A stretch of 64,000 bases of DNA from Albidovulum marisflavi (lineage in GTDB: Bacteria; Pseudomonadota; Alphaproteobacteria; Rhodobacterales; Rhodobacteraceae): contig NZ_JAOWKY010000006.1 in NCBI RefSeq assembly GCF_025751435.1, positions 1 to 64,000 of the forward strand, in the 5' to 3' direction. The number at the start of each line of letters is the position of its first letter. Within the stretch, counting starts at the first letter, position 1. The notes beneath the pieces were generated by a model. That model saw only the letters and a program-made list of their open reading frames with translations, ran no database searches and was not told the DNA's origin. Of the stretch, positions 7,025 through 55,435 are shown in pieces. The position numbers and the translations under genes are program-made.

Positions 7025-8134
7025 CTACGACTCGCGCGAGGTCTGGCGCTCGATCCTTCGCAGGATGCGAACGAGCGCCGACCCGAGCGTTGACCAGAAC
7101 ATGCCGACAATCGACGCAATGAATCCAGCCAATCCCGTAGCCACCCAATAGACTTCATCGGCGAGTCTTAGGCCAAGGCGGAGAACACGGCTTTTCCCGA
7201 ACATCGAGATAAGCCCAGCGGTTCGATCACGCGCAGAACCCGCTACCTTAGCTAGCTTTCTGAGTTCGTCGACGCTCTCTGCCTTGTCCAAAAGATAAAT
7301 GCCTTTGGAAATGCCGTTTGCAGCCCTGATTTCCTCAAGCGAACCCGCAGCAACAATAATTGGCTCAATGGCATCCTTTCTGAATATAGTTCCGAGGTCA
7401 TCCACTGAGCGGGCCGTGCCTAGGCGCACCCAGTCGATGCCTTCGCGGGCTGCTTTCCGCAAGGTTCGAACAATGGGCGCCGGAACCTTCCCGGCCAAAT
7501 AGGCAAACTTGAGGACTCCAGCGCCAGCTTTAATCGGCATTGCGGCCGGGGTTGCTGTGCCTGCGGAGAGGAGCCAAGATACCGTCGTTCCGAGGCCGAC
7601 AGCCGAAAGCGCGAGATCGACTTGGTCGATGTCATTGCCAGCGGCGTAGTCCAGAGCGCCCAGCGAGAGCGAAGTAACATCGCCAAATGGACTGATCGAC
7701 CAAACTACTCCGCAGAGCGCTGCAACCGAGAGTTCGCACGATGCTGGATCCCATGCGCAGCGAACACAATCCGTCCCAGCTTGAAGAAGCGAATAGTCCG
7801 CATCATGGGCAGCTTCAATTTCTAAGACCAGAGGAGCTGGAAGCGCATAGCCGGCATCATGGGCGATCGCTTGGAGGCTCTCGATGACAATCCAGTCCCT
7901 CGGGGCTGTCGCGAGCTCTTCACGAAGGCGAGCCTCTACCAAAGACCGAGAGCTGCCCTTAGCCACTAGCCTGTCGATTGCTGCCGTGATCTCGGACTGT
8001 GAGCGCTCAACAAATAGCCGGCCAGTGTGACTGCCAGCTATTTGATAGAGATTTACTGCGGTCACACCGAGAAAGGTGGCTGTGGTAAGAAAAAAACTGA
8101 ACCGCAGCAGCTTTCTGGCGAATGACCCAATCAA
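7025..8134 (-). CDS. Membrane protein of unknown function, 369 residues
   Basis: No family is recognised. A hydrophobic N-terminal segment (about residues 10-33) and C-terminal segments (about 320-355) suggest anchoring at both ends. A Cys-containing region near residues 118-140 and small-residue-rich hydrophobic stretches lie in between. The start is a TTG, supported by AAAGGCGGG just upstream. It lies 51 bp behind the nuclease-like gene at 8186-8971 on the same strand, so the two are probably cotranscribed. That could be a nuclease plus membrane-effector pair, but this is inference from context. The 6734-7024 gap on its far side shows no gene I can support. Confidence 0.65.
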   Translation of the reverse strand: MIGSFARKLLRFSFFLTTATFLGVTAVNLYQIAGSHTGRLFVERSQSEITAAIDRLVAKGSSRSLVEARLREELATAPRDWIVIESLQAIAHDAGYALPAPLVLEIEAAHDADYSLLQAGTDCVRCAWDPASCELSVAALCGVVWSISPFGDVTSLSLGALDYAAGNDIDQVDLALSAVGLGTTVSWLLSAGTATPAAMPIKAGAGVLKFAYLAGKVPAPIVRTLRKAAREGIDWVRLGTARSVDDLGTIFRKDAIEPIIVAAGSLEEIRAANGISKGIYLLDKAESVDELRKLAKVAGSARDRTAGLISMFGKSRVLRLGLRLADEVYWVATGLAGFIASIVGMFWSTLGSALVRILRRIERQTSRES

Positions 8135-8185
8135 TTTGCCCGCCTTTGCTCGTTGTTGTCGCCAGTGATCTCTTGAAGTTGTAGG

Positions 8186-8971
8186 CTACCGCGGACCGAT
8201 GTCGAACTCGGCAGCCAGATTTGTGGCATGAGCCGCGAGGTGCGCGTCTGCAGCCTGCGCCCAGCTTGCGACCAGACTGGCGTAGTCGAGGGCGATGAAG
8301 GCAACCTCATCTCCCGCCACGCGACCGGCAAAGTTGTCGATCATTGACCTGTGTTTCGCTTTCTTGAGTGCATCGACCGGTCGCCCTCCCGGCCAAGAAA
8401 CAGGCTCGGCGTAGAGGTAGAAGAGCACCGGGCGGAGCCCATGCCATGGGCCGTTCTCTCGGTGCACGGCGCTGCGCAGCCCGTAGGCGTGCTTTACCAA
8501 CTGGGCCGCGTCGAGCGCCTCGTAGCAGAGCGCACCGGACTTCAGCTCGTCGCGGACGGCGCAATAGCGGGCCATGCTGTCGCCCCAAACTGGGCGATCG
8601 TAGGCGTCGGTAAATCCGAGGCCTTTCTTGCCGCCACGAAACGGCTCGTAGCGTTTGCTTTCAATTCCGATCAGCAGGTCATCGGTGACAAGAACGGCGT
8701 CAAGCCACGGATGTTTCCCACCGGCCCAGGGAAAGCGCATTTCCGCTTCTAGCCTGACCTCTTTCACGGGTGATGCGATGAGCGATACCGGCAGCCTTGG
8801 TAATGCCTTAGGTCGTTCGAGAAACCAGCCAAAAGTGTTGGCAGCCAGCGCGGAGGAGCTTTCAGGACTCCAGAACTTGCCGCTTTCGATCTCGTTCCCG
8901 GCTGCATGGTCGTAGGCTGATCGAACCTTCTCGATCGGAACGCCCGGAAGAAAGTGGTTGTTCGACTGCAT
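8186..8971 (-). CDS. PD-(D/E)XK nuclease-like protein (PGN_0703-like)
   Basis: A 261-residue protein with a PD-(D/E)XK-type core: LEAEMRF with E75/E77, then D91 in HPWLDAVLV and E104-S-K106 in LIGIESKRYEP. It resembles the PGN_0703-type putative restriction nucleases, which are usually single-gene islands of unknown specificity. The ATG at 8971 follows GGAGGG. The membrane protein at 7025-8134 sits directly downstream, and the large exonuclease-helicase fusion is divergent. The nuclease fold is a motif-level call; activity and target are unknown. Confidence 0.65.
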   Translation of the reverse strand: MQSNNHFLPGVPIEKVRSAYDHAAGNEIESGKFWSPESSSALAANTFGWFLERPKALPRLPVSLIASPVKEVRLEAEMRFPWAGGKHPWLDAVLVTDDLLIGIESKRYEPFRGGKKGLGFTDAYDRPVWGDSMARYCAVRDELKSGALCYEALDAAQLVKHAYGLRSAVHRENGPWHGLRPVLFYLYAEPVSWPGGRPVDALKKAKHRSMIDNFAGRVAGDEVAFIALDYASLVASWAQAADAHLAAHATNLAAEFDIGPR

Positions 8972-9237
8972 GCTTCGTTGTCCCTCCAGATACTACACTT
9001 TCGCTAATTTCAGGGTCTCTTCAACCACCACCCGGACGGCTTGCACATCAGGCTATGGCACCGTTGCCATGCGCAAGTGCAAAGGAACGATGCAGCTGCT
9101 CGATCGATTGCCTGAGTGTTGGGCCGCGAAGCCACGCTTTGCCCAGGTAATCCGTTTCCTGCGCCAAGCTTACTCTATTGTAGTGCCGATTGGGTCACCC
9201 TAAGCTCGCACCGTGATCAACTATTGTCTTGGACTTT

Positions 9238-12200
9238 ATGGCTTTTCTGAGCTTCCTAAGATCAAAGGCCGAGGACACAAGGCCTCTGCTCGAGCGGTGT
9301 CTGTCGGTTGATCTCGAGGTCAACCCCAAGACCGCCGAGATTTTTGACATGGCAGCTGTGCGGGTCGGCGACGGGCCTGCGGTCGTGGCGGCAAAAGGCA
9401 AGATCCGGCAGGGTCTGGACCAGCTCGAAAAAGCGCTGGCAAAAACGCCCTATGTGATCGGCCACAATATCCTCCTCCACGATATCGAGCATCTTGTAGC
9501 GGCGCGCCCGCGGTTGGCCGCGAAATTGGCCGAGCCCATTGATACGCTTTGGCTCAATCCGCTTGCCTTTCCGCGCAATCCCTACCACCACCTCGTGAAG
9601 CACTACCACGACGGGCGTTTGCAAGTGGGGCATGTAAACGACCCGGAGCTTGATGCGCGGCTGGTGTTCGAGGTGTTGAACAACCAGATCAAGGCGCTGA
9701 CGGAACTGGCCGTGCTGTCGCCCGAAACGCTGGTTGCCTATCACTATCTGGCGACCCGCATGGATCGTGCCGCCGGGTTTGACGCCGTTTTCAGCGAAAT
9801 CCGCAAGGCGCCGAAACCGGATCGGGCCGAAGCGCTTGCGGCGATACGAGTGTTACTTGCAGGCAAAGCCTGTGGTGCGCAGGTGGCGGCGCTGCTCGAG
9901 CAGCTGTCAGACCCGCAGATGGCCTGGCCTACGGCCTATGCGCTCGCCTGGATCTCGGTATCTGGTGGGGAATCCGTGATGCCGCCCTGGGTGCGGGCAG
10001 CCTTTCCGCAAGCCGCCCTTATCGTGCACGAGTTACGCGATACCAACTGCGGCGACAGCGCATGCGGCTGGTGCGCCGAGATGAGCAACCCGGTCGGTGC
10101 GCTCAAGAAGTGGTTTGGCTTTGACGGCTATCGCCCCCAGCCCGTGGACAGCGACGGCCGACCTTTGCAAGAGGTCATCGTCTCTGAGGCCATGAGGCAT
10201 GCCAATGTCCTCGGCATCCTGCCCACCGGCACCGGCAAGTCAGTCTGCTATCAGGTGCCCGCACTCAGCCTTTATGAAAAGACCGGCGCGCTAACTGTAG
10301 TGATCTCACCACTGGTGGCTCTGATGGCCGATCAGGTGCAAGGGATGGAGCGTGCTGGGATCTCGTCCGCCGTCACCATCAACGGTATGCTGTCGATGCC
10401 CGAACGGCAGGATGCGTTCGATCGGGTGCGGCTGGGGCAGGCGGCAATCCTGCTCATCTCGCCGGAGCAGCTTCGCAGCATCTCGATCCGGTCGGTGCTG
10501 GCGCAGCGCGAGGTGGGATTGTGGGTGCTGGACGAGGCGCATTGCGTCTCGAAATGGGGGCACGATTTCCGGCCCGACTATCGCTACATCGGGCGCTTCA
10601 TCCGCGAGTTTTCGGGCGATTTGGGCCCAGCGCCGGTGTTGTGTTTGACGGCCACGGCCAAGCCAGAAGTCGTGCGTGACATAACCGAGCATTTCCGCGA
10701 TCGCTTGAGCGTCGAACTAGAGTTGTTCGATGGCGGCGCGACGCGAACGAATCTGGCATTTTCGGTGCTGGCGACGTCCAAGGAGAGCAAGCTCGGGGAC
10801 CTTCTTACGGTTATCACAGAGCGCTTGCCCAAAGGTGATCGGTCGGGGGCCGTGGTCTATTGCGCGACCCGGAGAGAAACCGAGCGCGTTGCGGATTTCC
10901 TGAAGAAGCAGGGCCTCGCAGCGGAACACTTTCATGCAGGTTTGACCGCCGACGACAAGCATTTGGTGCAGGAGCGGTTCCGCGTGGGCGATCAGCGAGT
11001 GATCGCAGCGACCAACGCATTTGGCATGGGCATAGACAAGCCCGACATCCGGCTGGTCGTTCACGCCGACATTCCAGGATCGCTGGAAAACTACCTGCAA
11101 GAGGCAGGGCGTGCGGGCCGCGACAGGGCCCCCGCCGAATGCGTTCTGCTTTACCACACTGACGATGTCGAACGGCAGTTCACCCTGACCGCGCGCTCGC
11201 GGCTCGAGCGCCATGAGATCGGCGCCATTCTCAAGGCATTGCGCCGCATGGACGAGCACACCCGCAACAGCGGCAAGGTGGTGGCGACACCGGGCGAGAT
11301 TGTGAGGGAGGAAAAGGACCGCGAGTTCGTGCGCGACAGCGCCACCGACGACACGCGGGTCAAAACGGCTGTGTCCTGGCTCGAAGAGGCGACGCTCGTC
11401 TCGCGTGAGGAAAACCGGGTGCAGGTATTTCCTTCCTCGCTTCTGGTGCGCACGCTGACCGAAGCCGAGACCCGCCTGCAAGGCGCTGAGATCACGCAGG
11501 CACGACGCAAGCAGCTGTTGACCATCGTGCGCCATGTGATGAACACACCGCCTGATCAGGGCATTTCAACAGACGAGCTGACCGGCATCAGCGGGCTTTC
11601 ACACCGGGAGCTCAGCAAAGCGATGGCCGATCTTGAGGCCCTTGGCATCGCGCGAAATGACATTGCCATCACGGTTTCGGTGCATGTCGGCGTCGAGAAC
11701 CAATCCCGCCAGCGTATGAAGCGTGCGATGCGTCTGGAGCAGGCGCTCATTACCAGGATGCGCGAGCTAGCACCCGAGGCCGGTGTGGGCGATAGCGCGC
11801 CGCTCGACGTGGCGGCGGCGAGCCAGCTATTGCGGGGTGAGGGACATGAGGACGCCAGCCCCCATATCCTTGATCGCTTATTGCGCAGCATCGAGCGGGA
11901 CGGCCGGGATAGCGACGGTGGCATGGGCAACATCCGCCTGCGCAAACTTTCCGCGAAGACTCTCGAGGTGGTGTTGCAACGCACTTGGCGGGTGGTGGAC
12001 CAGACCGCCTCCGTGCGCTGGATGGCGGCTGAGAAACTCCTCGATTTCCTGATTGCCAAGGTGCCCACGGGCACGAAAGGCAAGGATATTCAGGTCGATA
12101 CAACTGTCGGCGACATGATGGCTGCGCTCAGCGGCGATGCACTGATAAAGGCGTCTGGCGTAAAGGACATGACCAAGCTCATGGAACGCGCGCTTCTGTG

Positions 12201-14379
12201 GTTGCACGAGCAGCAGGTTGTTACGCTGGGCAAGGGGCTGACGGTGTTCCGCTCCGCGATGACCATCTATCTGAAACCAGGACGCTCAGGCTTCACCAAG
12301 AAGGACTTCCTGCCGCTCGAGGAACATTACCGCGAGCAGACCCTCCAGACGCATGTCATGGCCGCCTATGCTGAAAAAGGGCTGGAGCAGATCGACGAAG
12401 CTGTGCGCCTGTCCGAGGACTACTTCGTGCTCGATCAAGACCGCTTCTTGCAACGATGGATGCCTGGCCGCAACGTCGAGATCCGCCGCCAAACCACCGG
12501 AAAGGCCTGGAAGCAAATCGTTGAGGGGCTGGGTAATCCGGTCCAGCAAGAGATCGTCGCGGACGACCGCGAGGAAACAAACGTGTTGGTTATGGCGGGG
12601 CCGGGTTCGGGCAAAACTCGGGTTCTCGTGCATCGCATCGCCTATTTGCTGCGCGTCAGGCGCGAGGATCCGCGCGGTATCCTCGTGCTTACCTACAACC
12701 GACACGCGGCGGCCGAGATCCGTGCGCGTCTACGTCATCTGGTCGGAGATGATGCAGCCCGCGTCACCGTCTCGACCTGCCACGCATTGGCGATGCGGCT
12801 TGTGGGGGCGAGCTTTGCGGGCGGCGCGTCTGAGCCGCGCGACTTCGACTGCATCGTGATGGAAGCGGTGCGCCAGATCAATGGCGAGGGCCTGAGCCGA
12901 TCAGAGGCTGAGGCCCAGCGTGAGGCGCTCATCCAAGGCTATCGGTGGATCCTTGTGGACGAATACCAAGACATTGGACCCGAGGAATACGCGCTGATCG
13001 CCGCGGTGGCCGGGCGATCGCTTGACGATCCCGACCAGCGACTGAGCCTTTTTGCCGTGGGCGACGATGACCAGAATATCTACGCCTTTGCCGGGGCCTC
13101 GATATCCTTCATCCGTCAGTTCGAGGAAGATTATCGCGCCAAGCCCAAGTTCCTGACCGAGAACTACCGCTCGACCCGGCACATCATCGATGCTGCCAAC
13201 CAGGTCATCGAGCCCGCTCGCGGTCGCATGAAAGCGGGGCACGCGATCACTGTGGACAAGATACGCAGCCTCGATCCGGGTGGCGGACTGATGGCCCGTG
13301 TTGATCCGGTTGGTCAGGGGCGGGTGCAGTTTCTTGATGTGGCGCCCGATGACGTTTCACAGGCAATGGCTGCGGTCGACGAACTGGTGCGGATCTCTCG
13401 GCTCGATCCCAATTTCAGCTGGGCGCGCACTGCGATCATCTCGCGCGACTGGCGGCGTCTTGGTCCCGTGCGCGCCTATGCCGAGAAGCTCGGCTTGCCT
13501 GTCGAAATGGCCAACGAAAAGCTACCGAGCGTCTGGCGCCTGCGCGAGATGCAGCGCCTTGTGACTGGTTTGCGCAGAAACCCTGCGGCGATGCTCACGA
13601 TCCAGGACATCCTCAATGTGCTCAACGAGCAGCAGCCTAACCGCTGGGTCGACCTTGTCGCCGAAGGCATCGCGGACCTCGCCCGCGAGCTGGGCAAAAA
13701 GACAATTCCTGTTCCCGATGCGATCGAGTGGCTTGCGGAATGGTCGCAAGATATTCGCGCCACGCAGCGCGGGCTCTTGCTGCTCACCGCGCACCGCTCC
13801 AAGGGGCTCGAGTTTGACCATGTTGTGATCCTCAATGGCGGCTGGAAGCTGCTCTCGAGGGGCGAGGACGGTGAAGCCCCGCGCCGCCTGTTCTACGTAG
13901 CTATGACGCGCGCGCGTCGCAGCCTGGCGGTGGTGACTAGCGGGGAGCATGCCTTTGTGCTGGCGGACAGCGACTGCGAAATGCTGCGCAAAGTCGATAT
14001 GCTGCGGCGGCTCGATCTTCCCGATCCTGATCAATATCAGGTGCCAGATCTGACATCGGTCGATCTATCCTATGCAGGCCGGCTGCCCGAGACCAACCCG
14101 ACAATTCTCGCCATCTCCGAAGCGAAGGTCGAAGATCCGGTGACGCTTGGGCGGCGTGAGGGGAAATGGATAATCCTTGACCGCAAAGGTCGTTTGCTTG
14201 GGAGGATGGCCGCAAACTGGGCGCCGCCCGAGGGCACCGCTCTTGCGTCGGGAAAAGTGGGCGCGATCGTGCGCTGGCGCAAATCGGACAACGAGGAGCG
14301 CTACCAGACCTATATCAAGCGCGACGAGTGGGAGACGGTCCTGCCAGAGCTGGTCTTCCGCAGCGGCTTACGGGGATGA
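9238..14379 (+). CDS. Exonuclease-RecQ-UvrD triple fusion helicase
   Basis: A 1713-residue fusion of three DNA-processing engines. Residues 1-145 look like a DnaQ-type 3'-5' exonuclease with D25/E27, the GHN..HD motif (N77, D82) and H132..D139. Residues about 300-800 are a RecQ helicase, with GTGKS near 330-335, DEAHCVSKWGHDFRP at 432, and the late motif QEAGRAGRD. Residues about 1100-1650 are an SF1 UvrD/Rep helicase, with GPGSGKT near 1122, DEYQD at 1241, GDDDQNIYAFAGA and TAHRSKGLEF. The start is uncertain: ATG at 9238, or an in-frame TTG at 9229, neither with a strong ribosome site. It is monocistronic. A role against invading DNA is inferred from island context. Confidence 0.88.
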   Translation: MAFLSFLRSKAEDTRPLLERCLSVDLEVNPKTAEIFDMAAVRVGDGPAVVAAKGKIRQGLDQLEKALAKTPYVIGHNILLHDIEHLVAARPRLAAKLAEPIDTLWLNPLAFPRNPYHHLVKHYHDGRLQVGHVNDPELDARLVFEVLNNQIKALTELAVLSPETLVAYHYLATRMDRAAGFDAVFSEIRKAPKPDRAEALAAIRVLLAGKACGAQVAALLEQLSDPQMAWPTAYALAWISVSGGESVMPPWVRAAFPQAALIVHELRDTNCGDSACGWCAEMSNPVGALKKWFGFDGYRPQPVDSDGRPLQEVIVSEAMRHANVLGILPTGTGKSVCYQVPALSLYEKTGALTVVISPLVALMADQVQGMERAGISSAVTINGMLSMPERQDAFDRVRLGQAAILLISPEQLRSISIRSVLAQREVGLWVLDEAHCVSKWGHDFRPDYRYIGRFIREFSGDLGPAPVLCLTATAKPEVVRDITEHFRDRLSVELELFDGGATRTNLAFSVLATSKESKLGDLLTVITERLPKGDRSGAVVYCATRRETERVADFLKKQGLAAEHFHAGLTADDKHLVQERFRVGDQRVIAATNAFGMGIDKPDIRLVVHADIPGSLENYLQEAGRAGRDRAPAECVLLYHTDDVERQFTLTARSRLERHEIGAILKALRRMDEHTRNSGKVVATPGEIVREEKDREFVRDSATDDTRVKTAVSWLEEATLVSREENRVQVFPSSLLVRTLTEAETRLQGAEITQARRKQLLTIVRHVMNTPPDQGISTDELTGISGLSHRELSKAMADLEALGIARNDIAITVSVHVGVENQSRQRMKRAMRLEQALITRMRELAPEAGVGDSAPLDVAAASQLLRGEGHEDASPHILDRLLRSIERDGRDSDGGMGNIRLRKLSAKTLEVVLQRTWRVVDQTASVRWMAAEKLLDFLIAKVPTGTKGKDIQVDTTVGDMMAALSGDALIKASGVKDMTKLMERALLWLHEQQVVTLGKGLTVFRSAMTIYLKPGRSGFTKKDFLPLEEHYREQTLQTHVMAAYAEKGLEQIDEAVRLSEDYFVLDQDRFLQRWMPGRNVEIRRQTTGKAWKQIVEGLGNPVQQEIVADDREETNVLVMAGPGSGKTRVLVHRIAYLLRVRREDPRGILVLTYNRHAAAEIRARLRHLVGDDAARVTVSTCHALAMRLVGASFAGGASEPRDFDCIVMEAVRQINGEGLSRSEAEAQREALIQGYRWILVDEYQDIGPEEYALIAAVAGRSLDDPDQRLSLFAVGDDDQNIYAFAGASISFIRQFEEDYRAKPKFLTENYRSTRHIIDAANQVIEPARGRMKAGHAITVDKIRSLDPGGGLMARVDPVGQGRVQFLDVAPDDVSQAMAAVDELVRISRLDPNFSWARTAIISRDWRRLGPVRAYAEKLGLPVEMANEKLPSVWRLREMQRLVTGLRRNPAAMLTIQDILNVLNEQQPNRWVDLVAEGIADLARELGKKTIPVPDAIEWLAEWSQDIRATQRGLLLLTAHRSKGLEFDHVVILNGGWKLLSRGEDGEAPRRLFYVAMTRARRSLAVVTSGEHAFVLADSDCEMLRKVDMLRRLDLPDPDQYQVPDLTSVDLSYAGRLPETNPTILAISEAKVEDPVTLGRREGKWIILDRKGRLLGRMAANWAPPEGTALASGKVGAIVRWRKSDNEERYQTYIKRDEWETVLPELVFRSGLRG

Positions 14380-15434: not shown

Positions 15435-16469
15435 TTAGAAATCATACTCGTCCGCGACATCTCCTTTATCGAAGAAATCATCAAGGCGACTGAAAATATA
15501 ACTTTGCGCTTCCGAACCAGACCTTCCCGACACCTCTTTCTGGAGGATTAGATCTTCCGAAGTCATGGAGAGCGCTTCAACTATAACCTCTGTTCTGAAG
15601 GATTTTTTTGTCACGCAATACGGCAGCAGCCGGGATGCAAGGAAATCAAGCGCCCCACTAAACCCAGCTGCAAACATGAACGCGTTTTGGCGTTCAAACC
15701 AGAGCTCACCATAAAGCTGCTGAAGTGCGCTGAAGAAGTTAATAATAACTCGACTTTGATTTTCCAATGTCGACAGGGCAACTTGATCGAACGCCCCATT
15801 TTGCTCGATAAGTGGCTTGATACTGGTAACGACCGTTGACAGGGCGACACCTCCCTTTCTCGGAGCCTCACCCGGGAATTTAATCATGCCATGATATGGG
15901 GCGCCGACGTCGCTCAACTCCAATGCGATATCTCTGGCTCGAGCTGCGGCAGGATCAATCATTTGCTCATCGGCAATAGCATAGAGGTCGAAAACCAAGC
16001 TTCTATGAACTGGCTTCTGCTCAGTGTTAATGGCCAAGAAGATGTCAGCGCATTCTTGTGTGGTCAAATTGGAGTATACGGCCACGGGAAGATCTAAGCG
16101 CTTCAATTCTTCATTAGCTTCCATCGCCTCAGCAAGACCGGCCACGCGGTGCTGGCCGTCAATCAATTGCGCCAGCCTTGGTTTCGGATCAAATGAAACC
16201 GAGCCGCTTTGAGGGTCATACGTCAATCCACCTTCCTCAACCCAATTCATTACAATGGAATTTGGAAAGCTCCCACCTGAAAGGGCGAAGTCTTTAATTC
16301 TTGAAATTCGCCTGGAGTTAAGAACGCGCTGGACGGCCCCTTGCTCTTTATCCTTGCCACGTATAGCGGCGTAGGAAATTTTCACGACCAATTCGGCTGG
16401 CATATTTAGGAGGAAGAATGGCCGACCGTGTTGCTCGAGACGAATGCAGGGGAGATTCAACGCTGTCAT
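15435..16469 (-). CDS. DGQHR-domain protein (DndB-like)
   Basis: A 344-residue protein with the signature IDGQHRVAGL near residue 108 and the following AVYSNLTTQECADIFLAINTEQKPV typical of the DGQHR family. DndB, a regulator of phosphorothioate modification, is the best-known relative. The ATG at 16469 (MTALNLP) has GTGAGG upstream; a GTG five codons earlier would sit almost on the transcription start. TAGTAT (near 16487) and the palindrome GCTATGGCATAGC (16493-16505) look like a promoter/operator. It is coupled to the HEPN-like gene, and no dnd genes are present, so a DndB role cannot be assumed. Confidence 0.8.
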   Translation of the reverse strand: MTALNLPCIRLEQHGRPFFLLNMPAELVVKISYAAIRGKDKEQGAVQRVLNSRRISRIKDFALSGGSFPNSIVMNWVEEGGLTYDPQSGSVSFDPKPRLAQLIDGQHRVAGLAEAMEANEELKRLDLPVAVYSNLTTQECADIFLAINTEQKPVHRSLVFDLYAIADEQMIDPAAARARDIALELSDVGAPYHGMIKFPGEAPRKGGVALSTVVTSIKPLIEQNGAFDQVALSTLENQSRVIINFFSALQQLYGELWFERQNAFMFAAGFSGALDFLASRLLPYCVTKKSFRTEVIVEALSMTSEDLILQKEVSGRSGSEAQSYIFSRLDDFFDKGDVADEYDF

Positions 16470-16492
16470 GCTGGAAAGCCTCACTATACTAC

Positions 16493-20925: not shown

Positions 20926-21378
20926 ATGAAACACGCAATGCAGCAGAATTCTTCAATCGACGACCCTCTCCTTTTTGACCTCAACGCAGCCCCGAACATA
21001 CGTAGCTTGAAAGCTTCTATCGCGCGTCTTCACTTGTCTGCGGACGCAAAATCCCTGCTCGAGACGCTCGCGCGCTTCACGGTGACGGTTGCCGGAACCG
21101 TAGTAGCCGTCGGACGAAAGATACTGCAAGTCTGTCTCGCGTTGCTCCGAACCTTCCCGAACTTGCTCTTCGGAGTGATCGTCGCGCTCGCGCTTTCAAT
21201 GATCGTGGCGTCCATCCCGCTGCTCGGGCCCCCGTTGAGTGCAATATTGACACCGCTGCTCGCGATTGTCGGCATCGGAGTCGGTGCCTTGGCAGACATG
21301 AAGAGTGGAAAGATTGGTGAGCAGATGGGTCGTTTGGTGGACGTGCTGGAGGCCGCGTTGGGTGGGCAGACTGCATGA
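20926..21378 (+). CDS. Small membrane protein coupled to a TerB-like gene
   Basis: A 150-residue protein with a soluble N-terminus, a hydrophobic region near residues 50-75 and a strongly hydrophobic double segment near 82-125 (GVIVALALSMIVASIPLLGPP and ILTPLLAIVGIGVGALA). Its stop overlaps the ATG of the next gene (ATGA at 21375-21378), so the two are coupled. No family is recognised. With the TerB-like protein and the convergent membrane nuclease it forms a membrane-centred locus. Confidence 0.7.
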   Translation: MKHAMQQNSSIDDPLLFDLNAAPNIRSLKASIARLHLSADAKSLLETLARFTVTVAGTVVAVGRKILQVCLALLRTFPNLLFGVIVALALSMIVASIPLLGPPLSAILTPLLAIVGIGVGALADMKSGKIGEQMGRLVDVLEAALGGQTA

Positions 21379-22289
21379 CGACGACCATTGCCGAATTTGA
21401 GGGCATCGAAGGTGTCGTCGCCGACGACCTTCGTTTTCGCCTCAAGCTCGGCATCGGTGAGGACGCCTACACCTCGATCCGCTACGCAAAACGCTTGCAG
21501 CAGTTATGGGATGTCGGGGGTGTCGCCGCGGCAGGAGCCAAGTTTGCCAGCACCTCCACAATGGTCGCATCCTTCTTTGGGGGATCGGGGCTGCTTGCAA
21601 GTCTCGGACTGACCACGGCGGTGACGCCGATCGGATGGGTGATCGCTGCGGGAGTTGCCTGTGGAGGTGCCTACTACGGCGTGATGCGGCTTGCCGGTGC
21701 CTATGGCGGTGCTCGCGTCAGCAAGATTCCAGAGTTCATCAACACGCCGATCGATTATCTCGGCGCGGTGCTCATCGACATGATCGGGACGCTGGCAATC
21801 AAGCTCGCCACGCTTGACGGAAACATACACGATGACGAACGGGCTGCGATCCTCGATCATTTCGTGAGCGAGTGGGGTTTCGACCGCAACTATTGTGATC
21901 GAGCGCTTTCCGTGATCATCGAGAACAACGCGAGCATAAGCTTGAAGGATGCGGCCAAGGTTCTTGGTGGATTCGTGCGCGATCATCAGGACTGCAACGC
22001 GGACGCGATGCGTGTTGATCTCATCAACCTGCTGCGCGAGATCGTGGAAGCTGACGGCAAGATTGATGAAGTCGAAGAGCTGGCGCTCGAGAAGATCGAG
22101 GCAATCCTGCACGCAGAGATGAGCCCGTCGATTTCGCGGTCGGCGGGAAAACTGACAGGTTCATTGCTCGATGCTGCGCGATCGGTGGGCAGCTCGATTT
22201 CGCAGATGGCCGACCAGTCCGCCGCGGAGATCGATAAGGTTGCGAAGTCCGGGATCGGGGCGCTCAAGAACCTGACGCGCAAGGAGTAG
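21375..22289 (+). CDS. TerB-like protein with a membrane segment
   Basis: A 304-residue protein. Residues about 60-110 form a hydrophobic, glycine-rich double segment (LLASLGLTTAVTPIGWVIAA). The middle resembles a TerB/DjlA-type helical domain: LATLDGNIHDDERAAILDHF near residues 140-160 and REIVEADGKIDEVEELAL near 220-240, with repeated acidic DG.I...E loops. TerB-like domains occur in tellurite resistance and in several phage-defence systems (Shango SngA is one). The gene overlaps the small membrane gene upstream by four bases and is convergent with the membrane nuclease. Confidence 0.72.
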   Translation: MTTTIAEFEGIEGVVADDLRFRLKLGIGEDAYTSIRYAKRLQQLWDVGGVAAAGAKFASTSTMVASFFGGSGLLASLGLTTAVTPIGWVIAAGVACGGAYYGVMRLAGAYGGARVSKIPEFINTPIDYLGAVLIDMIGTLAIKLATLDGNIHDDERAAILDHFVSEWGFDRNYCDRALSVIIENNASISLKDAAKVLGGFVRDHQDCNADAMRVDLINLLREIVEADGKIDEVEELALEKIEAILHAEMSPSISRSAGKLTGSLLDAARSVGSSISQMADQSAAEIDKVAKSGIGALKNLTRKE

Positions 22290-22342
22290 CGCTCCCTCCG
22301 CCCAAGCTTCAGTCCACTCGGCCAAGGGGAGACAGGCGATCG

Positions 22343-24700
22343 TCAGTCCCTCGCCGGTTTGAGTGCCCCCGCGCGATGAACCCAGACCTTCGCCTGTTCC
22401 CCCACCGCGTCAAGAAGGCCGGGGCGCTGCATGAGGTGCCGCTCCAGCCGTCTGCGTGCTTTGATGACGACTTTCGATCCCGGAGCGAGCAGTGCTGAGG
22501 TGGCGATCAGGGCAGGAACGTTCTCCTCGTTCCTTGGTGGTTCGGCCAGGCTGGCCAGATCCTCGATCGCTGCTACGAGGTCGTCATTCGATCGGCTGTT
22601 GAGCCATGGGCCGAAATCGCTGCTATTACCCGACGTTCTGGCACGAATTTGCTCGGATCGTGCACTGAGTTCCCGGATGCGGGTTTCGATGGCCAAGCGC
22701 AGTTCGGCATGCAGGTCCGCGGCAAGAAAGATCAGATCCGCATGCCATTCCCGGATCAGGATCTTGTTCGCCACGCCCTGAAGCGGCGCAGCACCGATCA
22801 GGGCCGCGCAAGCGACAGCGGGGCCGAAGATCACCGCGCCTGCCGGGCCGGCTGCCACAAGACCCGCAAGCCATCCAACCTTACCTCCGGCGAACGCAAG
22901 TGCACCTTTGGCGCCTGCATTCATGGCCATCCAGACCGGGAGATCCGACAGGGGAATTCTGCCGCGCCAGACTTCTATCCCACCCCTGAGCACGCCCAGC
23001 TCGAGAGCCAGCTCAACCACGCCCGGCTCTAGTATGGAGGCCGCATGGCCAAGTGCCTCGGAGATGTCATGCTCAAGCCCGGCGATATCGAAGCCGGGAA
23101 CGGTCGTGACGAGGTCGGCCCAATCCTCGCCACGCTTCCACGCCTGCTGCGCAAGCTCTGCGTTGGCGATGACGGGGATGTCCGGATACTTCTCGAAGTG
23201 TTCGGTCAGGTTCGAGATATCTTGGGCGCATTTTACCTGGACAGGAGAGCCGTCGACGATCACGTCCAACCCCGCGGTATTACTGTCTGGTGCCAGCGAT
23301 ACCGCATGTCCGTCGGCGACGAGTCGATCCAAGACGAGGCGCTCCGCGGTATATCCGCGCAATGAGTAGCCGGCGGCTTCGGACGCGAACATCTGGGCGT
23401 TCGCCGCGAAGGTGATCGGGTCCCCCAGATCGTCGATGCGACAGAAATCGGCGGCGGCTATGACATTCGGGTTGATCGCTGCGGCGTGCCAATACATCTC
23501 CCCGGCCGTGAGTGCGCCAGCAAGAAGGGCGTCATTGAGATCGGTCATCGATGCCTTCGGAAGCCGGCACTGGTGCCAGGGTGCTGGCGGTGTGCCGGCG
23601 ATCTTTCCAAACGGCTTTCCCAGGTGGCGAGTGATGAAGGCAGCCTGCTTACGAAAACCGCGAAGCTCCGACTTGGAGAGATGCGCCATCCGTGGTTCGG
23701 GCGACCGGGTCAGAGATCTCATTGAGTCCAAGAAGACCGTTGTGCCGGCTTCGGCTTCTCCATGTCCGGCCATTGCCAGGAGAACGCAGATCCGGGCCGC
23801 GATTGCAGACCTGACGGTTGCGCCAGTCTTGGTCGCACCGAGCCAGGCAAGGGCCGCAATGCCAGCGACAAGCACCACCGGGTTGACAAGCACAGCCAGG
23901 AGCGAGACGAGCGTCTGACCTCCGATCAGCGGGATCCAGGCGCTCGCTTGGGCTGCCAGGATGTAGGGGGTGAAACCGGCATTGGCGACGGCCACCGCGA
24001 ACATTGCCCAACCACCGCCGGCGGCGATGGCCGCTTGCGCGGCGAGATGGGCTTTTCTCATGGCTTCGGCCATCTTGGGATCATGCACCGCAGCTTCTTG
24101 CGTGGCCCTCTCCATGAGCTCAGGATCCCCAAACAATGCGAGGATCTCCTCCTGAACGATCACGGGGAATGGCAAGGGTTCGGTCCCTTGCCACTGCTTC
24201 GTCAGCTGGATCACTATGCTCGCGGCCTGTGCTCCGAGGTTCTCTGCCCAAGGTGTATCCTCGACTTCTCGAGACAGCTTCCTCTTTTTCTCTTCCAACT
24301 TCCGCGCCGCGCGGATTGCTGGTGAAAGCCGTTCTGAGGCGCGCACGGCGAGAGCCGAGGCGCTCATCCGGCCGGAACGGCGCGAGAATGGCGTGGGCCC
24401 CTGGGCTGCGAGACTTTCCGTTAAAGTAAACCAAAGTTGGTGACGCAGTTCATCATCGCTCGCGGTCGATCTGGAAATGGCCGCAGCGTGCGCCTTCATC
24501 TGCGCGGCGGCATCGTTTTCTATAAGCTTCAACTTGTTGCCGAGGCCCTTCGCCGCCCCCTTCACTACAGCGAGTCCTTCCCCCGCCGCGAGAAGCGCGA
24601 GGTAGGTGGCGATCAGGTCGCGATCGGCATGCCCGATCCCGGACAGAATGGCTTCGGGCTGGATTGGGGGAATTTGACGCAAGTCCATGGAAACACACAT
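22343..24700 (-). CDS. Large membrane protein with embedded Mrr-like nuclease domain
   Basis: About 785 residues. Two hydrophobic blocks (about residues 190-260 and 600-665) flank a soluble part with a restriction-type core: GYTAERLVLDRLVADGH, then D479 in GLDVIVDG and Q488-V-K490 in VQVKC. This is the D-QxK variant used by Mrr-type nucleases. Following text (FEKYPDIPVIAN) fits the same fold. A long charged N-terminal region (KLEEKKRKLSREVED) precedes the first block. The start is uncertain: ATG at 24700, ATG at 24688, or GTG at 24739. It is convergent with the TerB-like pair, 53 bp away. No known family is recognised for the whole protein. Confidence 0.72.
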   Translation of the reverse strand: MCVSMDLRQIPPIQPEAILSGIGHADRDLIATYLALLAAGEGLAVVKGAAKGLGNKLKLIENDAAAQMKAHAAAISRSTASDDELRHQLWFTLTESLAAQGPTPFSRRSGRMSASALAVRASERLSPAIRAARKLEEKKRKLSREVEDTPWAENLGAQAASIVIQLTKQWQGTEPLPFPVIVQEEILALFGDPELMERATQEAAVHDPKMAEAMRKAHLAAQAAIAAGGGWAMFAVAVANAGFTPYILAAQASAWIPLIGGQTLVSLLAVLVNPVVLVAGIAALAWLGATKTGATVRSAIAARICVLLAMAGHGEAEAGTTVFLDSMRSLTRSPEPRMAHLSKSELRGFRKQAAFITRHLGKPFGKIAGTPPAPWHQCRLPKASMTDLNDALLAGALTAGEMYWHAAAINPNVIAAADFCRIDDLGDPITFAANAQMFASEAAGYSLRGYTAERLVLDRLVADGHAVSLAPDSNTAGLDVIVDGSPVQVKCAQDISNLTEHFEKYPDIPVIANAELAQQAWKRGEDWADLVTTVPGFDIAGLEHDISEALGHAASILEPGVVELALELGVLRGGIEVWRGRIPLSDLPVWMAMNAGAKGALAFAGGKVGWLAGLVAAGPAGAVIFGPAVACAALIGAAPLQGVANKILIREWHADLIFLAADLHAELRLAIETRIRELSARSEQIRARTSGNSSDFGPWLNSRSNDDLVAAIEDLASLAEPPRNEENVPALIATSALLAPGSKVVIKARRRLERHLMQRPGLLDAVGEQAKVWVHRAGALKPARD

Positions 24701-24869
24701 GTTCGCAATTGATCTTCGCGCACTATCGACGCGGAACACGCCATTTCCAAGGCCATTCTTCGGGCTGAGGTCTGCCGTCTTCTTCCTCGGAAGCGCGTGC
24801 CCTTAGATCATTCGAGCGCTCTGCGGTGGGCGCCCAAACGCACAGAGTGATAGCTAGCCACCGAAAACT

Positions 24870-25340
24870 TCACACGGGCGGTCTTCGCACCTCTGGAATC
24901 CGATCGCTCTCCCGGACGCTCTCGGCCAAACGGGATAGCTGCGCCAGGGAGATCGGTCGTTGTCCATTCTTCTGCATCTTGCCCGCAGCCGCCCAGGCAA
25001 GGGAACCCGGCCCGTTGAAGACGACGCTGATCGGTCCCCCTTTGGGCCGGTGCAGAACGATCAGGTGTTCCGGCTCATGGCGTATCGCAACGCCGGTTCC
25101 TTGCGTGAACTTGATCTCGACCGCTCGGCCATCCGCCGCCTTGGCGTCGTGCCCCAGCGTCGAAGCTGGATTGAGATCGAGGTCGAAGACGTAGGCGGCG
25201 ACGACTTCGCCGATACTACCTACCAGGTGGCCATCCAGGGTGAACTTGCGGCCTGGGAACAGCGCTTCAAGACTTTCGGACGCAGTGTAGAGGTCTTCGA
25301 GACACCGCTCGACCTTCGCCCAGTCGACATCATGGTCCAC
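24870..25340 (-). CDS. DUF6998-like PD-(D/E)XK domain protein
   Basis: A 156-residue protein with a nuclease-like core: SIGEVVAAYVFDLDL, then HDAKAADGRAVEIKFTQG, giving D...E-I-K, and a later VVFNGPG. It resembles DUF6998 proteins, small stand-alone PD-(D/E)XK proteins of unknown action. The likely start is a GTG at 25340. It lies 24 bp behind the 74-residue gene on the same strand, so the two form an operon divergent from the GIY-YIG fusion gene. Confidence 0.7.
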   Translation of the reverse strand: MDHDVDWAKVERCLEDLYTASESLEALFPGRKFTLDGHLVGSIGEVVAAYVFDLDLNPASTLGHDAKAADGRAVEIKFTQGTGVAIRHEPEHLIVLHRPKGGPISVVFNGPGSLAWAAAGKMQKNGQRPISLAQLSRLAESVRESDRIPEVRRPPV

Positions 25341-25364: not shown

Positions 25365-25589
25365 CTACTGGGCGCGCATCTTCATTGCTGAGGCCACGAA
25401 CGCCTCGAAAATACGCTGCCCCCCGTCGTAGGCGTCTGCCTCTTGGGGCTCTAGCCAAATCAGGCCGGCCGCCTCGCGCCGCTTGCCGCAGACGAGCGCG
25501 CTCTTCGGGTGCCCCACAGGCTCGACGCACCGCACATGACTTCTCGGCCGGCCCGTCGGTGGATGGTCTTTGCAGCGGATAATTGCCAT
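25365..25589 (-). CDS. Conserved small protein, 74 residues
   Basis: The frame MAIIRCKDHPP to MKMRAQ looks like a known family of short hypothetical proteins: one Cys near the start, then VEPVGHPKSALVCGK, AGLIWLEPQEADAYDGGQRIF and a C-terminal basic MKMRAQ. AAAGAG precedes the ATG at 25589. It is the first gene of a two-gene operon with the DUF6998-like gene, and only 40 bp separate it from the divergent GIY-YIG fusion start. The function is unknown. Confidence 0.65.
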   Translation of the reverse strand: MAIIRCKDHPPTGRPRSHVRCVEPVGHPKSALVCGKRREAAGLIWLEPQEADAYDGGQRIFEAFVASAMKMRAQ

Positions 25590-25629
25590 GCTCTTTGTGG
25601 AGTTGCGACAGTGTGGGAGCAGTCTATCC

Positions 25630-27366
25630 ATGGCCGCAGTAGACAGGAAGGCCGATCTCGACCGGTTCTACGATCTGCTTCAACGACTGGCTTCAAAGAC
25701 CGGGGGCCTCGTGCGCCTCGAAGACGCAACGGCGCGTCAGTCCTGGCCGTCCCGCGGCGTCTACTTCTTCTTCGAAGACGGTGAAGCTCGTGAGGACGGA
25801 TCACAGCGCGTCGTTCGTGTCGGAACGCACGCGCTCACTTCCGGCTCGAAGTCGACGCTCTGGGGGCGCTTGTCGCAACACCGGGGGAGCGTCGGCGATA
25901 GGACAGGAAACCACCGCGGATCGGTGTTCCGGGATCTGGTCGGCCAGGCAATCATGGCGCGCGACGGGCTGATCGTGCCGTCCTGGGGGAATGGGAAGTC
26001 GGCAGAATATGAGTTTCGGAGCGCTGAGGCAGACTTGGAGCGGCTCGTAAGCGCGCATATCGGCGCGATGAAGATCCTATGCCTTGATGTCGGCGATGAT
26101 CCATCGCCTGCGTCTCTCCGCGGGACAATCGAGCGCAATGCCATTGCTCTTCTCAGCAACTACTCTGGTTCATCGATCGACCCTGCGTCGCCCGGTTGGC
26201 TCGGGCGTCTCAGTGGCCGGGAAAAGGTGCGCCGCTCAGGGTTGTGGAACAGTCGCCATGTCGACGAAGGCTATGACCCGTCCTTTCTGGACGCTCTGGA
26301 GCGGTTGATCGAAGACGGTGATACCATGCCCTCCGCCCCAGGCACGCGCGACATCTATGTCATCCAGTGCGCAAAATCCAAGGTGCCGGGCGGCTACCTG
26401 CGGGACCCTTCGGGGAAGCCGGTGCTGTTCGTCGCGGATCCCGGATCGGCTCCCAAGCGAAGCGATGTCGTCTACGCTCATCCAGATGACCACCGCCCCG
26501 ACGGGTTGTCCTGGCGGCAGTATCTGCTTCGCTACAATGACGAGCGGCCCGATAATCCTGATGGGCTTCACCGGGCAATCGACCTTTACCGCAACCCGGC
26601 ATACGCGGCGATGCGCGACGCGTTCGGCGCCGAAAACCTGCTCGTGCTCTCTGCCGGCTGGGGCCTCGTTCGGGGGAACTTCCTACTCCCCCAATACGAG
26701 ATCACGCTCAGCCAGGCGGGGCGTGCGACCGGATACAATTCGCGCGCGCTGCATCCTGATTTCGACGACTTGGTCCAGCTGCCTGAGACGGCTTCCGGTC
26801 GACTCTGCATGATCGGCGGAAAGGACTATCTGCCCCTCTTCCTGCAGCTTACGCGGGGCTATGCCGGGCCGAGGGCGATCTACTACAACAGCAACACGCC
26901 GCCGGCAGTGACGGGCTTTGAACTCATCCGCTACCCGTCCGACACGAGAACGAATTGGCACTACGCGCTTGCCAAGGAGCTCGCCGATGGTCGGGACGTT
27001 GCGGGTCTGTCTGCACGGGCCGTTCCGAGGAGAGGGCTGGCCGATCGACAGGTCAGAAAACGAACCACTCCTGGCGCTTCGGCAGGAACCCGGGCCGGCG
27101 CGGTCAGTCGGAAGTATGCACCGCTCTACAGGCATCTGATGGAGCAGGAAGAGAGCACCAAGTCCGTGACGCTTACCTTCGCGCAGATCGCTGAGATCCT
27201 CGGTCAGGCGCTACCAGCTTCGGCCAGGATCCACGCACCTGTCTGGTGGGCGAATGGCGGGCACCTTCAAGCAGAGGCCTGGCTACGTGCGGGATACCGG
27301 AAGGCGGCGCATCACCTGGGGAAAGATGCGAAGACGAGCTGGGTGCGCTTTGAGCGAACCTCTTAA
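25630..27366 (+). CDS. GIY-YIG, DUF6884 and DUF7662 fusion protein
   Basis: A 578-residue three-part protein. Residues about 40-95 match a GIY-YIG nuclease: RGVYFFFEDGE, then RVVRVGTHALT and LWGRLSQHRGS. Residues about 240-460 contain DIYVIQCAKSKVPGGYL and LVLSAGWGLVRGNFLLPQYE, as in DUF6884/YaaA-like domains, whose YaaA member binds DNA. The C-terminal 80 residues (TLTFAQIAEILGQALP, WWANGGH, AWLRAGY) resemble DUF7662. The ATG at 25630 has GGGAGCAG upstream. The combination suggests a DNA sensor or cutter. It is divergent from the DUF6998 operon, and these three genes may form one unit. Confidence 0.75.
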   Translation: MAAVDRKADLDRFYDLLQRLASKTGGLVRLEDATARQSWPSRGVYFFFEDGEAREDGSQRVVRVGTHALTSGSKSTLWGRLSQHRGSVGDRTGNHRGSVFRDLVGQAIMARDGLIVPSWGNGKSAEYEFRSAEADLERLVSAHIGAMKILCLDVGDDPSPASLRGTIERNAIALLSNYSGSSIDPASPGWLGRLSGREKVRRSGLWNSRHVDEGYDPSFLDALERLIEDGDTMPSAPGTRDIYVIQCAKSKVPGGYLRDPSGKPVLFVADPGSAPKRSDVVYAHPDDHRPDGLSWRQYLLRYNDERPDNPDGLHRAIDLYRNPAYAAMRDAFGAENLLVLSAGWGLVRGNFLLPQYEITLSQAGRATGYNSRALHPDFDDLVQLPETASGRLCMIGGKDYLPLFLQLTRGYAGPRAIYYNSNTPPAVTGFELIRYPSDTRTNWHYALAKELADGRDVAGLSARAVPRRGLADRQVRKRTTPGASAGTRAGAVSRKYAPLYRHLMEQEESTKSVTLTFAQIAEILGQALPASARIHAPVWWANGGHLQAEAWLRAGYRKAAHHLGKDAKTSWVRFERTS

Positions 27367-46017: not shown

Positions 46018-48108
46018 GTGGAAAACCAGCTTGAGAATGTCGGTCTCAACCAAACCATTGATGATGCTGGCCGCACCGTCGTCGATCTGATTATTACCCT
46101 TGCGGAACTTTTGACAAAGAACGATGGGGCGCCAGGGCTTGTTGCGATCCTTTTGGTGCTCGCACTCTTGGTATTCGGACTTACGTTTTGGTTGCGCACC
46201 CGAAATCAGGTGAAGGCTGTCGGTGAAATGCGTGCCATGGTCGAGGCATATCCGGGTATTCGCGAATTCTCATCCGGTTTTGATGAGTTCAGGGCGAAGG
46301 TGAAGGAGCGAAGCGCCGCCTCGAAGCAGTGGTTTGATCTGTCCGAGGCATGGGATGAGTTCAGTGAGACAGTGGTTGTTGACGACGTGGACGGAACGAT
46401 TACGCAGCGGAACTCCATCAGGCCATCCTCATTCTTGAATGTTCATGATCTGGGCTTTGGTCCCGGTGTCTTTCGGATTCTTCCAAACCTTTTCGTCTCT
46501 GTCGGGCTCTTCCTGACGTTTCTTGGATTGGTTGCTGCCCTTAACGAATTTTCCCTGACCATGCAGGGAGCTTCAAACGCCGATGCGGGTCTGCAGGGCG
46601 CAATGACCGGTTTCATGCAGATCGCGTCGGCGAAGTTCGTCATGTCCTTGGTCGGCTTGGCGTGCTCGATCGTCTTTACCTACTTGCTGCGCAAGCGAGG
46701 AGACTTCGTCGATCACGAACTGCACAAGCTTTGCCTGAGGATCGAGCGCAGGCTGGTGTTTGTCAGCCTTGAGGATATTGGGTTTCGTCAGCTCAAGGCG
46801 GCAACGGAACAAAGAGAGCATCTTCGGGAGATCGGGTTTTCTATGGTGGCTGAGTTGCGGAAGCCACTAGACGAGCTTCCGGAGCACATAACCCGGTCCA
46901 TTTCGGCACAGATGGATCCCATCATCGACAAGGTGAGTCGAATGGGAACTGCAAGCATGGAAGGCTTGGTTGGAGATCTTTCCACACAGTTGACGCACTC
47001 GGTCGGAAACGCACTGAACCGCGCCAGCGAGTCTCTTGGAGAGGCATCTGACCGGATCAGCCTGATGGTTGACCGAATGAACGCCTCCAATGCCCAGGCA
47101 GGAGACGGCTTGCAGAGCGCCCTCGCGGAGATGGCTGTTGCCATCAACAATCTGCGACAACAGGTTGCAGCGACTGGAGAAACGGCGTCCTCCACGATGA
47201 CGAGAGGCGCGGAACAGCTCCTGAGCGTCATGAATGAGACGCTCGCGGGTATCCGGGACAACACATCAGAAGGCGCCGCCGCGATGAGATCTGCCGCAGA
47301 CGAAATGCGTCAGGCCGCGGAACGATTCCGCGACGAGCTTGCCGCGGCTGCATCTGACGGCGCCGCCGCCGCGCAGTCGCAGATGGCGGCTACTACCACG
47401 ATTGCGAGCCGGGCCATCGACGGAGCCGGCAAGGTGGTTCTGGAGTCTTTCGAATCCGCAAGTCAGGAAATCGCCCGGCTCGGTGCCACAATGGGCGAAA
47501 CAATCGGCGGCACTCTGCTGCACCAACTGGACGCCGTGAGTTCTCGGCTTGGGGATCTCGGGGCCGCCATCGACACCAGCGTCGCCGGTGCGAATTCGGC
47601 GGCTTCCGGACTTCGCAGTGGCGCGGAAGCGGTCTCCGGTGCTTCTGCGTCCTTCGGGGATGCCAGCCGCCAGCTTGTTGGCGCGGTCGAGCCGCTGCGG
47701 AACGCGCACGACAAAATCGAGAGCCAGATCCGCAAGCTAGCGGAAACCACCGCGTCGGTGTCGGATATCGTCCAAGCGGACGCTAAGAGTGTCGTCGCCT
47801 ATTCGAAACATGTGCTCGACACAGCCCAGGCTGCGCTCGGAACGGAACGGGAAGGCATCAGGGCGTCTCTCGAAGCCACCCGCGTTGCCTTGCAGGAAAT
47901 CTCAGATCAGGCAGAGAAGCTGGATCAGATCGACATCATGCTGGGCAAGGCGCTTTCTAACTACAACAGCCAGCTTGAAGCGGCGCTCGGTGCCGCCCAA
48001 GATCACGTCACCCAAATGCGTGACCGACTGGCTCCGGGTATAGATACGCTTAGAAGCGTCGTAGAACAGGCCGAAGCATTTCTGCCGGCTCAAGGCAGGA
48101 GGGCCTGA
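46018..48108 (+). CDS. zorA: Zorya system MotA-like subunit ZorA
   Basis: A 696-residue inner-membrane protein with three visible transmembrane segments (about residues 41-59, 155-178 and 206-224) in a MotA/TolQ/ExbB-like head. A very long Ala/Ser-rich helical tail (about 260-690) should extend into the cytoplasm. In Zorya the ZorA pentamer with a ZorB dimer forms a proton-driven motor that senses phage invasion. The start is a GTG behind GGAGAGG. Stop and zorB start overlap (TGATG at 48106-48110). It is the first gene of a four-gene operon. Confidence 0.93.
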   Translation: MENQLENVGLNQTIDDAGRTVVDLIITLAELLTKNDGAPGLVAILLVLALLVFGLTFWLRTRNQVKAVGEMRAMVEAYPGIREFSSGFDEFRAKVKERSAASKQWFDLSEAWDEFSETVVVDDVDGTITQRNSIRPSSFLNVHDLGFGPGVFRILPNLFVSVGLFLTFLGLVAALNEFSLTMQGASNADAGLQGAMTGFMQIASAKFVMSLVGLACSIVFTYLLRKRGDFVDHELHKLCLRIERRLVFVSLEDIGFRQLKAATEQREHLREIGFSMVAELRKPLDELPEHITRSISAQMDPIIDKVSRMGTASMEGLVGDLSTQLTHSVGNALNRASESLGEASDRISLMVDRMNASNAQAGDGLQSALAEMAVAINNLRQQVAATGETASSTMTRGAEQLLSVMNETLAGIRDNTSEGAAAMRSAADEMRQAAERFRDELAAAASDGAAAAQSQMAATTTIASRAIDGAGKVVLESFESASQEIARLGATMGETIGGTLLHQLDAVSSRLGDLGAAIDTSVAGANSAASGLRSGAEAVSGASASFGDASRQLVGAVEPLRNAHDKIESQIRKLAETTASVSDIVQADAKSVVAYSKHVLDTAQAALGTEREGIRASLEATRVALQEISDQAEKLDQIDIMLGKALSNYNSQLEAALGAAQDHVTQMRDRLAPGIDTLRSVVEQAEAFLPAQGRRA

Positions 48109-55359: not shown

Positions 55360-55385
55360 TGGTAGGCCCGGAGGGACTCGAACCC
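55360..55385. repeat. Right attachment repeat inside the tRNA 3' end
   Basis: These 26 bp of the tRNA 3' end, including CCA, are repeated exactly at 4726-4751. They mark the crossover segment of integration; the element brought a replacement 3' end so that the tRNA stays intact. Confidence 0.9.
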
Positions 55386-55435
55386 CCAACCAAGGCGTTA
55401 TGAGCGCCCTGCTCTAACCATTGAGCTACAGGCCC
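55360..55435 (-). tRNA. tRNA with CAU anticodon (tRNA-Ile2 or tRNA-Met)
   Basis: A 76-nt gene including CCA. The acceptor stem GGGCCTG pairs with the end before A-CCA, the D-arm has TAGCTCAATGGTTAGAGC, the anticodon loop is CTCATAA with CAT, and the T-arm contains GGTTCGAGTCC. The anticodon CAU is shared by elongator tRNA-Met and by tRNA-Ile2, in which the C becomes lysidine. The stem sequence looks to me more like alphaproteobacterial Ile2, but this is not certain. It is the integration target of the island. Confidence 0.93.

Follow-up and report, generated by a model that had tools for sequence, protein, structure and literature searches.

A candidate membrane-tethered PD-(D/E)xK nuclease beside a separate TerB pair in a defence island of Albidovulum marisflavi

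Several described defence systems can be compared with the genes considered here, and their features are given as they appear in excerpts of the cited articles. SNIPE is a membrane-bound anti-phage protein consisting of DUF4041 and a GIY-YIG nuclease with an N-terminal anchor; it is held in the inner membrane with its domains in the cytoplasm, and this location keeps harm to the chromosome in check (PMC13190303). Zorya and Kiwa couple membrane sensing to action on injected DNA (PMC12904381). Shango, Bunzi and Dionysus are defence systems that contain TerB, with Bunzi composed of BnzA and BnzB (PMC10952713, PMC11206119, PMC12926258) and Shango harboring a helicase and an ATPase (PMC10250203). 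The present analysis concerns three adjacent genes, A, B and C, in a stretch of 64,000 nucleotides from Albidovulum marisflavi (assembly GCF_025751435.1, contig NZ_JAOWKY010000006.1, positions 1 to 64,000), which is referred to as the window. The initial annotation had joined the three genes in a single membrane-nuclease system. Here, C is considered as a candidate single-gene nuclease at the membrane, and A and B as a pair of their own.

The open reading frames agree with that annotation, in which A, of 150 amino acids, is coupled to B, and C, of 785 amino acids, faces both. The genes and the layout of C are as follows.

20926-21378, plus strand: gene A, a small membrane protein of 150 amino acids that recurs with B and not with C
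21375-22289, plus strand: gene B, a TerB-domain protein of 304 amino acids, with TerB at residues 139-247 and a hydrophobic stretch at residues 73-91
22346-24700, minus strand: gene C, 785 amino acids from an ATG at 24700, with the stop codon at 22343-22345
Residues of C, in order: helical N-terminal part; hydrophobic block 254-285; core at about 445-515; hydrophobic block 608-640; helical C-terminal part

Open reading frame calling also offers a GTG start for C, giving 798 amino acids at 22343-24739. The start of B overlaps the stop of A by 4 bp. The A-B pair and C are transcribed convergently, their ends 53 bp apart, and hence do not form a common operon. A scan of the locus for promoters and terminators gave a result not above that of shuffled sequences. 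In Pfam, the TerB family (PF05099) matches residues 139-247 of B at E 2.1e-10, which bears out the TerB-like assignment made initially. Across Pfam, PADLOC, NCBIfam and PHROGs, A has no match at E ≤ 1 and the best match of C reaches only E 0.019; neither Mrr nor any other PD-(D/E)xK model matches C in Pfam at E ≤ 1. Hydrophobic windows were defined on the Kyte-Doolittle scale as 19 residues with a mean of at least 1.6. They are found at residues 55-73, 80-98 and 104-122 of A, at 73-91 and 129-147 of B, the latter overlapping the TerB part, and at 28-46, 254-285 and 608-640 of C. The last two flank the nuclease core, as had been claimed, and B has its own hydrophobic segment, also as claimed.

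Assignment of C to the nucleases relies on conserved residues and on a predicted fold. In an alignment of 28 related cores, which were cut by anchoring on the (Q/N)xK motif without use of the E and the D, E453, D479 and K490 are the only residues of C identical in all 28, with Q488 conserved in 26. Close relatives of one another, from phage cassettes described below, make up eleven of the 28; the table excludes L009 and L091, in which the core is missing, the fragment L062, and L056. The latter, a protein of 143 amino acids from IMG/VR, was too distant and was kept out of the alignments. The catalytic residues proposed initially, D479, Q488 and K490, thus stand at the positions named, with E453 as a further conserved residue, and C carries the PD-(D/E)xK (Mrr-type) signature E...D...(D/E/Q)xK. 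In a motif scan of seven distant members, drawn from 16 places found, E, D and QLK were judged by eye to be in place in five, while the match in L086 was unclear and L088 had none. A weak match to PDDEXK_5 (E 0.0099) is present in one of six core members tested. A profile of distant core members, A4, which does not contain C but whose members were themselves reached by search chains starting from C, recovers the following segment in a search of the genome of C.

23144-23359, minus strand: core of C, found by profile A4 at E 4.2e-7

Rough estimates of nonsynonymous (dN) and synonymous (dS) divergence between C and its closest homologue, in Sedimentimonas flavescens (L007, 70% identity), are about 0.20 and 1.44 for the whole protein and 0.09 and 1.54 for the core, with dS near saturation. 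The lower dN of the core indicates that it is better kept than C as a whole, and C is under purifying selection.

An AlphaFold2 model of the core, built from 14 sequences, displays the order helix, strand, strand, strand, helix, strand, which is the order of the PD-(D/E)xK core. In the model, E453 lies in the first helix, D479 just before the second strand, and Q488-V-K490 at the end of the third strand. Means of the predicted local distance difference test (pLDDT) over ten residues are 88-92 across model residues 71-150, except for one at 73. A full-length AlphaFold2 model of C predicts the same core order at lower confidence. The structure check proposed for the nuclease site, in so far as it covers the order of the fold elements, gave the expected result. 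Among 50 rows listed by Foldseek against BFVD, a functional name is given for 18. Nucleases account for 12 of the 18, including a Holliday-junction resolvase (probability 1.00, TMt 0.51, root-mean-square deviation 2.2), a restriction endonuclease and VRR-NUC; the remaining six names are those of minor capsid proteins, of zinc-finger or KilA-N proteins and of a Dam methylase. Against the PDB, 15 of the 50 rows listed are R2, Hjc, I-Ssp6803I, DdmD or 3ndh, all of which we take to carry a nuclease domain of the PD-(D/E)xK kind. Sequence searches of the PDB yielded no match at E ≤ 1 with profile A1 and no useful match with profile A2.

The distribution of C is patchy. Matches occur in 6 of 195 relatives, a count that includes the genome of C itself and two chance matches, and in 4 of 385 genomes of the class, again with its own genome included. 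The chance matches, in G084 and G094, correspond to an ABC-permease-like gene and to a stretch antisense to an aminotransferase-like gene, both named by eye. The plasmid collection contains two matches, and scans of viral contigs with C alone returned no relatives. Besides L007, the further loci comprise a plasmid of Paracoccus zhejiangensis (L008, 36% identity), L010 (30%), L089 (48%), L090 (36%), L009 with the N-terminal part only, L011 with the start lost at a contig end, and the degraded L091. In six of these eight, a strong PADLOC match lies beside C: TmtA at L007, a HerA fragment at L009, ShosA and ShosT at L010 (ShosT placed there by inference), AbiJ at L011, CRISPR type I-C at L089 and CRISPR type I-E at L091. 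The scan of L007-L011 covered called proteins of at least 90 amino acids within 6.5 kb, 57 proteins in all, one of them hand-chosen in place of a called one; for L089, L090 and L091 it covered three, one and three hand-picked proteins, respectively. At L089, the C homologue (7799-10159) lies between genes that look by eye like tyrosine recombinases and the type I-C cas genes.

Distant relatives of the core are found in tailed-phage surroundings. Profile A4 detected 11 IMG/VR contigs (L063-L073), in all of which the nuclease gene comes after a glycine-rich gene, with both antisense to the phage genes. The nuclease open reading frames span 274-301 amino acids, their true starts being uncertain, and those of the partners 300-373; the glycine-rich partner has between one and three windows of mild hydrophobicity. 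In all 11 loci the cassette is flanked by the same pair of tail genes, one on each side. In Rhodobacter phage RcKemmy, the homologues of the two flanking genes each carry the annotation minor tail protein and adjoin directly, with a 4-bp overlap. Matches to a phage major capsid protein and to a head maturation protease are found among the other neighbours at L067. The two-gene cassette is thus a phage moron in all 11 loci, which holds for these distant relatives and not for C. Phage genes of use to the lysogen are commonly found in morons. The hydrophobic part and the nuclease also occur fused in one protein (L059, 594 amino acids; L093, 554 amino acids) or as two adjacent genes (L012), and on the IMG/VR contig L055 the core is followed by a glycine-zipper match (E 2.8e-5) just under the Pfam cut-off. 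At L094, the core gene adjoins a TmtA-type gene and a NERD/helicase-type gene. Judged from sequence, C looks like the largest fused, all-in-one form of the two parts. Two small genomes of the same class harbor a distant core protein beside a cytosine methylase (L060, 5300-6907) and beside a ResIII-type helicase (L061, 5369-6982).

Taken together, the core, its predicted fold, the linkage of hydrophobic and nuclease parts, and the defence and moron context are the grounds for reading C as a membrane-side nuclease. Specifically, C may act as a single gene whose product, a nuclease tethered to the membrane, keeps out phage or plasmid DNA in the manner of SNIPE but with a different nuclease family, a proposal to which we give an even chance. 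Two hydrophobic helical blocks would hold C at the inner membrane, with the PD-(D/E)xK (Mrr-type) domain between them on the cytoplasmic side. Foreign DNA, most likely that of phages or plasmids, would be cut at or soon after entry, and membrane position rather than sequence would spare the chromosome, as in SNIPE. Membrane insertion and its side, DNA cleavage, target, timing and anti-phage activity are all features that we infer for C. The phage moron pair, a hydrophobic partner with a nuclease, probably excludes competing phages. Somewhat more tentatively, C may belong to an unnamed family of membrane-coupled PD-(D/E)xK exclusion nucleases that includes two-gene morons in tailed phages, mid-size fusions, and stand-alone island genes of about 770-840 residues. 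All of these would cut DNA that crosses the inner membrane, as a second, independently evolved answer to the problem that SNIPE solves. Pfam, NCBIfam, PHROGs and PADLOC contain no clear model for the nuclease family of C, which is undescribed within those libraries and the literature searched; together with its moron branch, this family would be a new form of membrane-localised defence. SNIPE is the one well-worked single-protein nuclease found as an example in which self and non-self DNA are told apart by membrane position. If the same is true of C and the moron pairs, this strategy would have evolved more than once and would serve phages against their rivals, and a nuclease family lacking a clear model in four profile libraries would gain a function.

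A number of observations weigh against this reading of C. The invariance of K490 is partly by construction, since its column served as the anchor, and N replaces Q488 in 2 of the 28 cores. The full-length model is of low quality beyond the core, with a mean pLDDT of 42, and is too poor for the membrane topology of C to be read from it. In the Foldseek comparisons, 35 of the 50 PDB rows listed belong to other folds such as lyases and methyltransferases, the R2 alignments have root-mean-square deviations near 12, and none of the rows listed for the PDB or BFVD reaches E ≤ 0.001. The moron partners are of borderline hydrophobicity, with window means of 1.6-1.9. C is absent from the sequenced-phage collection, as are the L067 gene and L059. 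PADLOC detects no strong defence neighbour at L008 and L090, and the count of defence neighbours for C is given with no statistical test and without a proper control. The neighbours of B homologues also match PADLOC models, in 54 families at E ≤ 1e-10 (13 of 14 loci, with L036 left out); some names among the 25 of these families that were listed can also be matched by ordinary helicases, transporters and cysteine desulfurases.

The proposal that A, B and C make up one membrane-nuclease system draws on their adjacency in the window and on the hydrophobic segments in all three. The co-occurrence search contradicts it as a general rule, and we consider it highly improbable. C is missing from all 14 further B loci read, and in the stretches of 12-18 kb fetched for the eight further C loci neither A nor B is present. 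The 14 exclude the weak matches L040 and L041 and include three from genome G034 (L035, L038 and L039); some stretches are short, as L038 spans 3.7 kb, L030 stops at a contig end and L011 begins inside C. Of five genomes with C homologues in which B was searched, G034 alone has it, in three copies on other contigs. The convergent orientation also speaks against a joint system. A adjoins B in 9 of the 14 loci (L029-L033, L036, L038, L039 and L044), and this recurrence, with the 4-bp overlap, upholds the coupled pair of the initial annotation; A-B is thus a recurrent two-gene unit, and A has no model in the four libraries. B matches occur in 12 of 195 relatives, with its own genome counted, and in three plasmid records, and scans of viral contigs with B alone returned no relatives. 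Several B loci look like ordinary chromosome, with uvrB-like (L033), lysyl-tRNA-synthetase-like (L031) and AddAB-like (L032) neighbours noted by eye among the genes listed. Because homologues of B and C never adjoin in the further loci read, A-B and C appear, on the sequence evidence, to be two unrelated cassettes lying side by side. The pair may serve as a sensor of the envelope or of stress, or may constitute a two-gene defence system in itself. The idea of a membrane nuclease working with a TerB protein therefore survives only in its first half: for C, an Mrr-like nuclease linked to the membrane and located in a defence island remains plausible, and the TerB partnership was wrong.

The main rival to cutting at entry is abortive infection: C would be a nuclease kept silent at the membrane until a disturbance of the membrane during infection sets it free or activates it, upon which it degrades host DNA and kills the cell. 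The same anatomy, a nuclease between hydrophobic blocks, fits this account; AbiJ and ShosA/ShosT are among the neighbours of C homologues, and anchorless SNIPE is toxic in a nuclease-dependent manner in the excerpted report (PMC13190303). We nevertheless regard abortive infection as rather unlikely: no recurrent neighbour suited to be an inhibitor or sensor was seen by eye in the gene lists of L007, L008, L009, L011 and L089-L091, and core relatives sit in phage genomes, a setting in which a suicidal nuclease would have to be tightly controlled. The same lists count against an exported antibacterial effector whose hydrophobic blocks carry a nuclease toxin across the membrane of a competitor, as they offer no immunity-gene candidate. 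Glycine-zipper segments and nuclease domains are known in secreted interbacterial toxins, but C has no secretion marker domain and the phage-tail moron context of its distant relatives fits exclusion better, making an effector quite improbable. A housekeeping or DNA-processing role for C at the membrane, such as DNA uptake or repair, with its place in islands due to chance, is also improbable. Nucleases with such a core also act in repair and recombination, and Holliday-junction resolvases are among the fold matches; the patchy distribution, the defence-gene neighbours of C homologues and the moron relatives point away from such a role. Exclusion of incoming DNA by C is the preferred reading.

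The surroundings of A, B and C form a real defence island at tRNA-Met, as the initial annotation had recognised. Two of its features have the following coordinates.

46018-53630, plus strand: ZorA, ZorB and ZorC (type I Zorya), then an SNF2-type helicase in the ZorD position
53706-55268, minus strand: tyrosine recombinase beside tRNA-Met (55360-55435), the probable island end

Other island genes comprise REase-ARP, a giant DpdF/UvrD-like gene, DndB-like, HNH, DUF6998 and DpdC-like genes, and type I restriction-modification with PDC-S11. The giant gene (9229-14379, plus strand) encodes 1716 amino acids and combines a DpdF-like helicase region (E 3e-113) with a second, UvrD/GajB-like one; this unusual double-helicase fusion lies beside REase-ARP (8186-8971) and the DndB-like gene (15435-16484). 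Directly upstream of C on the same strand, the DUF6998 protein (24870-25340, minus strand, E 2.9e-49) has a weak PADLOC match to mREase_II (E 0.0016) and a strong match to a PHROG of unknown function, and is possibly another small nuclease. The 598-residue protein at 25570-27366 (plus strand) contains PDC-M57B (E 7.6e-83), a DpdC-like stretch and DUF7662.

Each cassette can be compared with known systems. B shares TerB with Shango, Bunzi and Dionysus. On neither side of A-B in the window does a gene match a helicase or ATPase family, and A-B is therefore not Shango, in line with the initial view that the kinship is limited to TerB; no recurring helicase and ATPase pair was seen by eye among the genes listed at other B loci. 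B has no Bunzi model match in PADLOC, which is uninformative as the release may not hold such a model. For C, Zorya and Kiwa provide a parallel in membrane-localised defence; these are multi-gene systems built on ZorAB motors or on KwaA/KwaB, whereas C appears to be a single gene. With Mrr and other PD-(D/E)xK restriction-like nucleases, C has in common the E..GxD..QxK signature and the order of strands and helices, and it differs in that the core sits within a large protein with a presumed membrane linkage. C is not SNIPE, given that it has neither DUF4041 nor GIY-YIG at E ≤ 1 in Pfam and carries instead a putative PD-(D/E)xK core with hydrophobic blocks on both sides. The likeness lies in the design: each is a single protein that combines a nuclease domain with a hydrophobic anchor, a putative one in C, and in each the position at the membrane could decide which DNA is the target.

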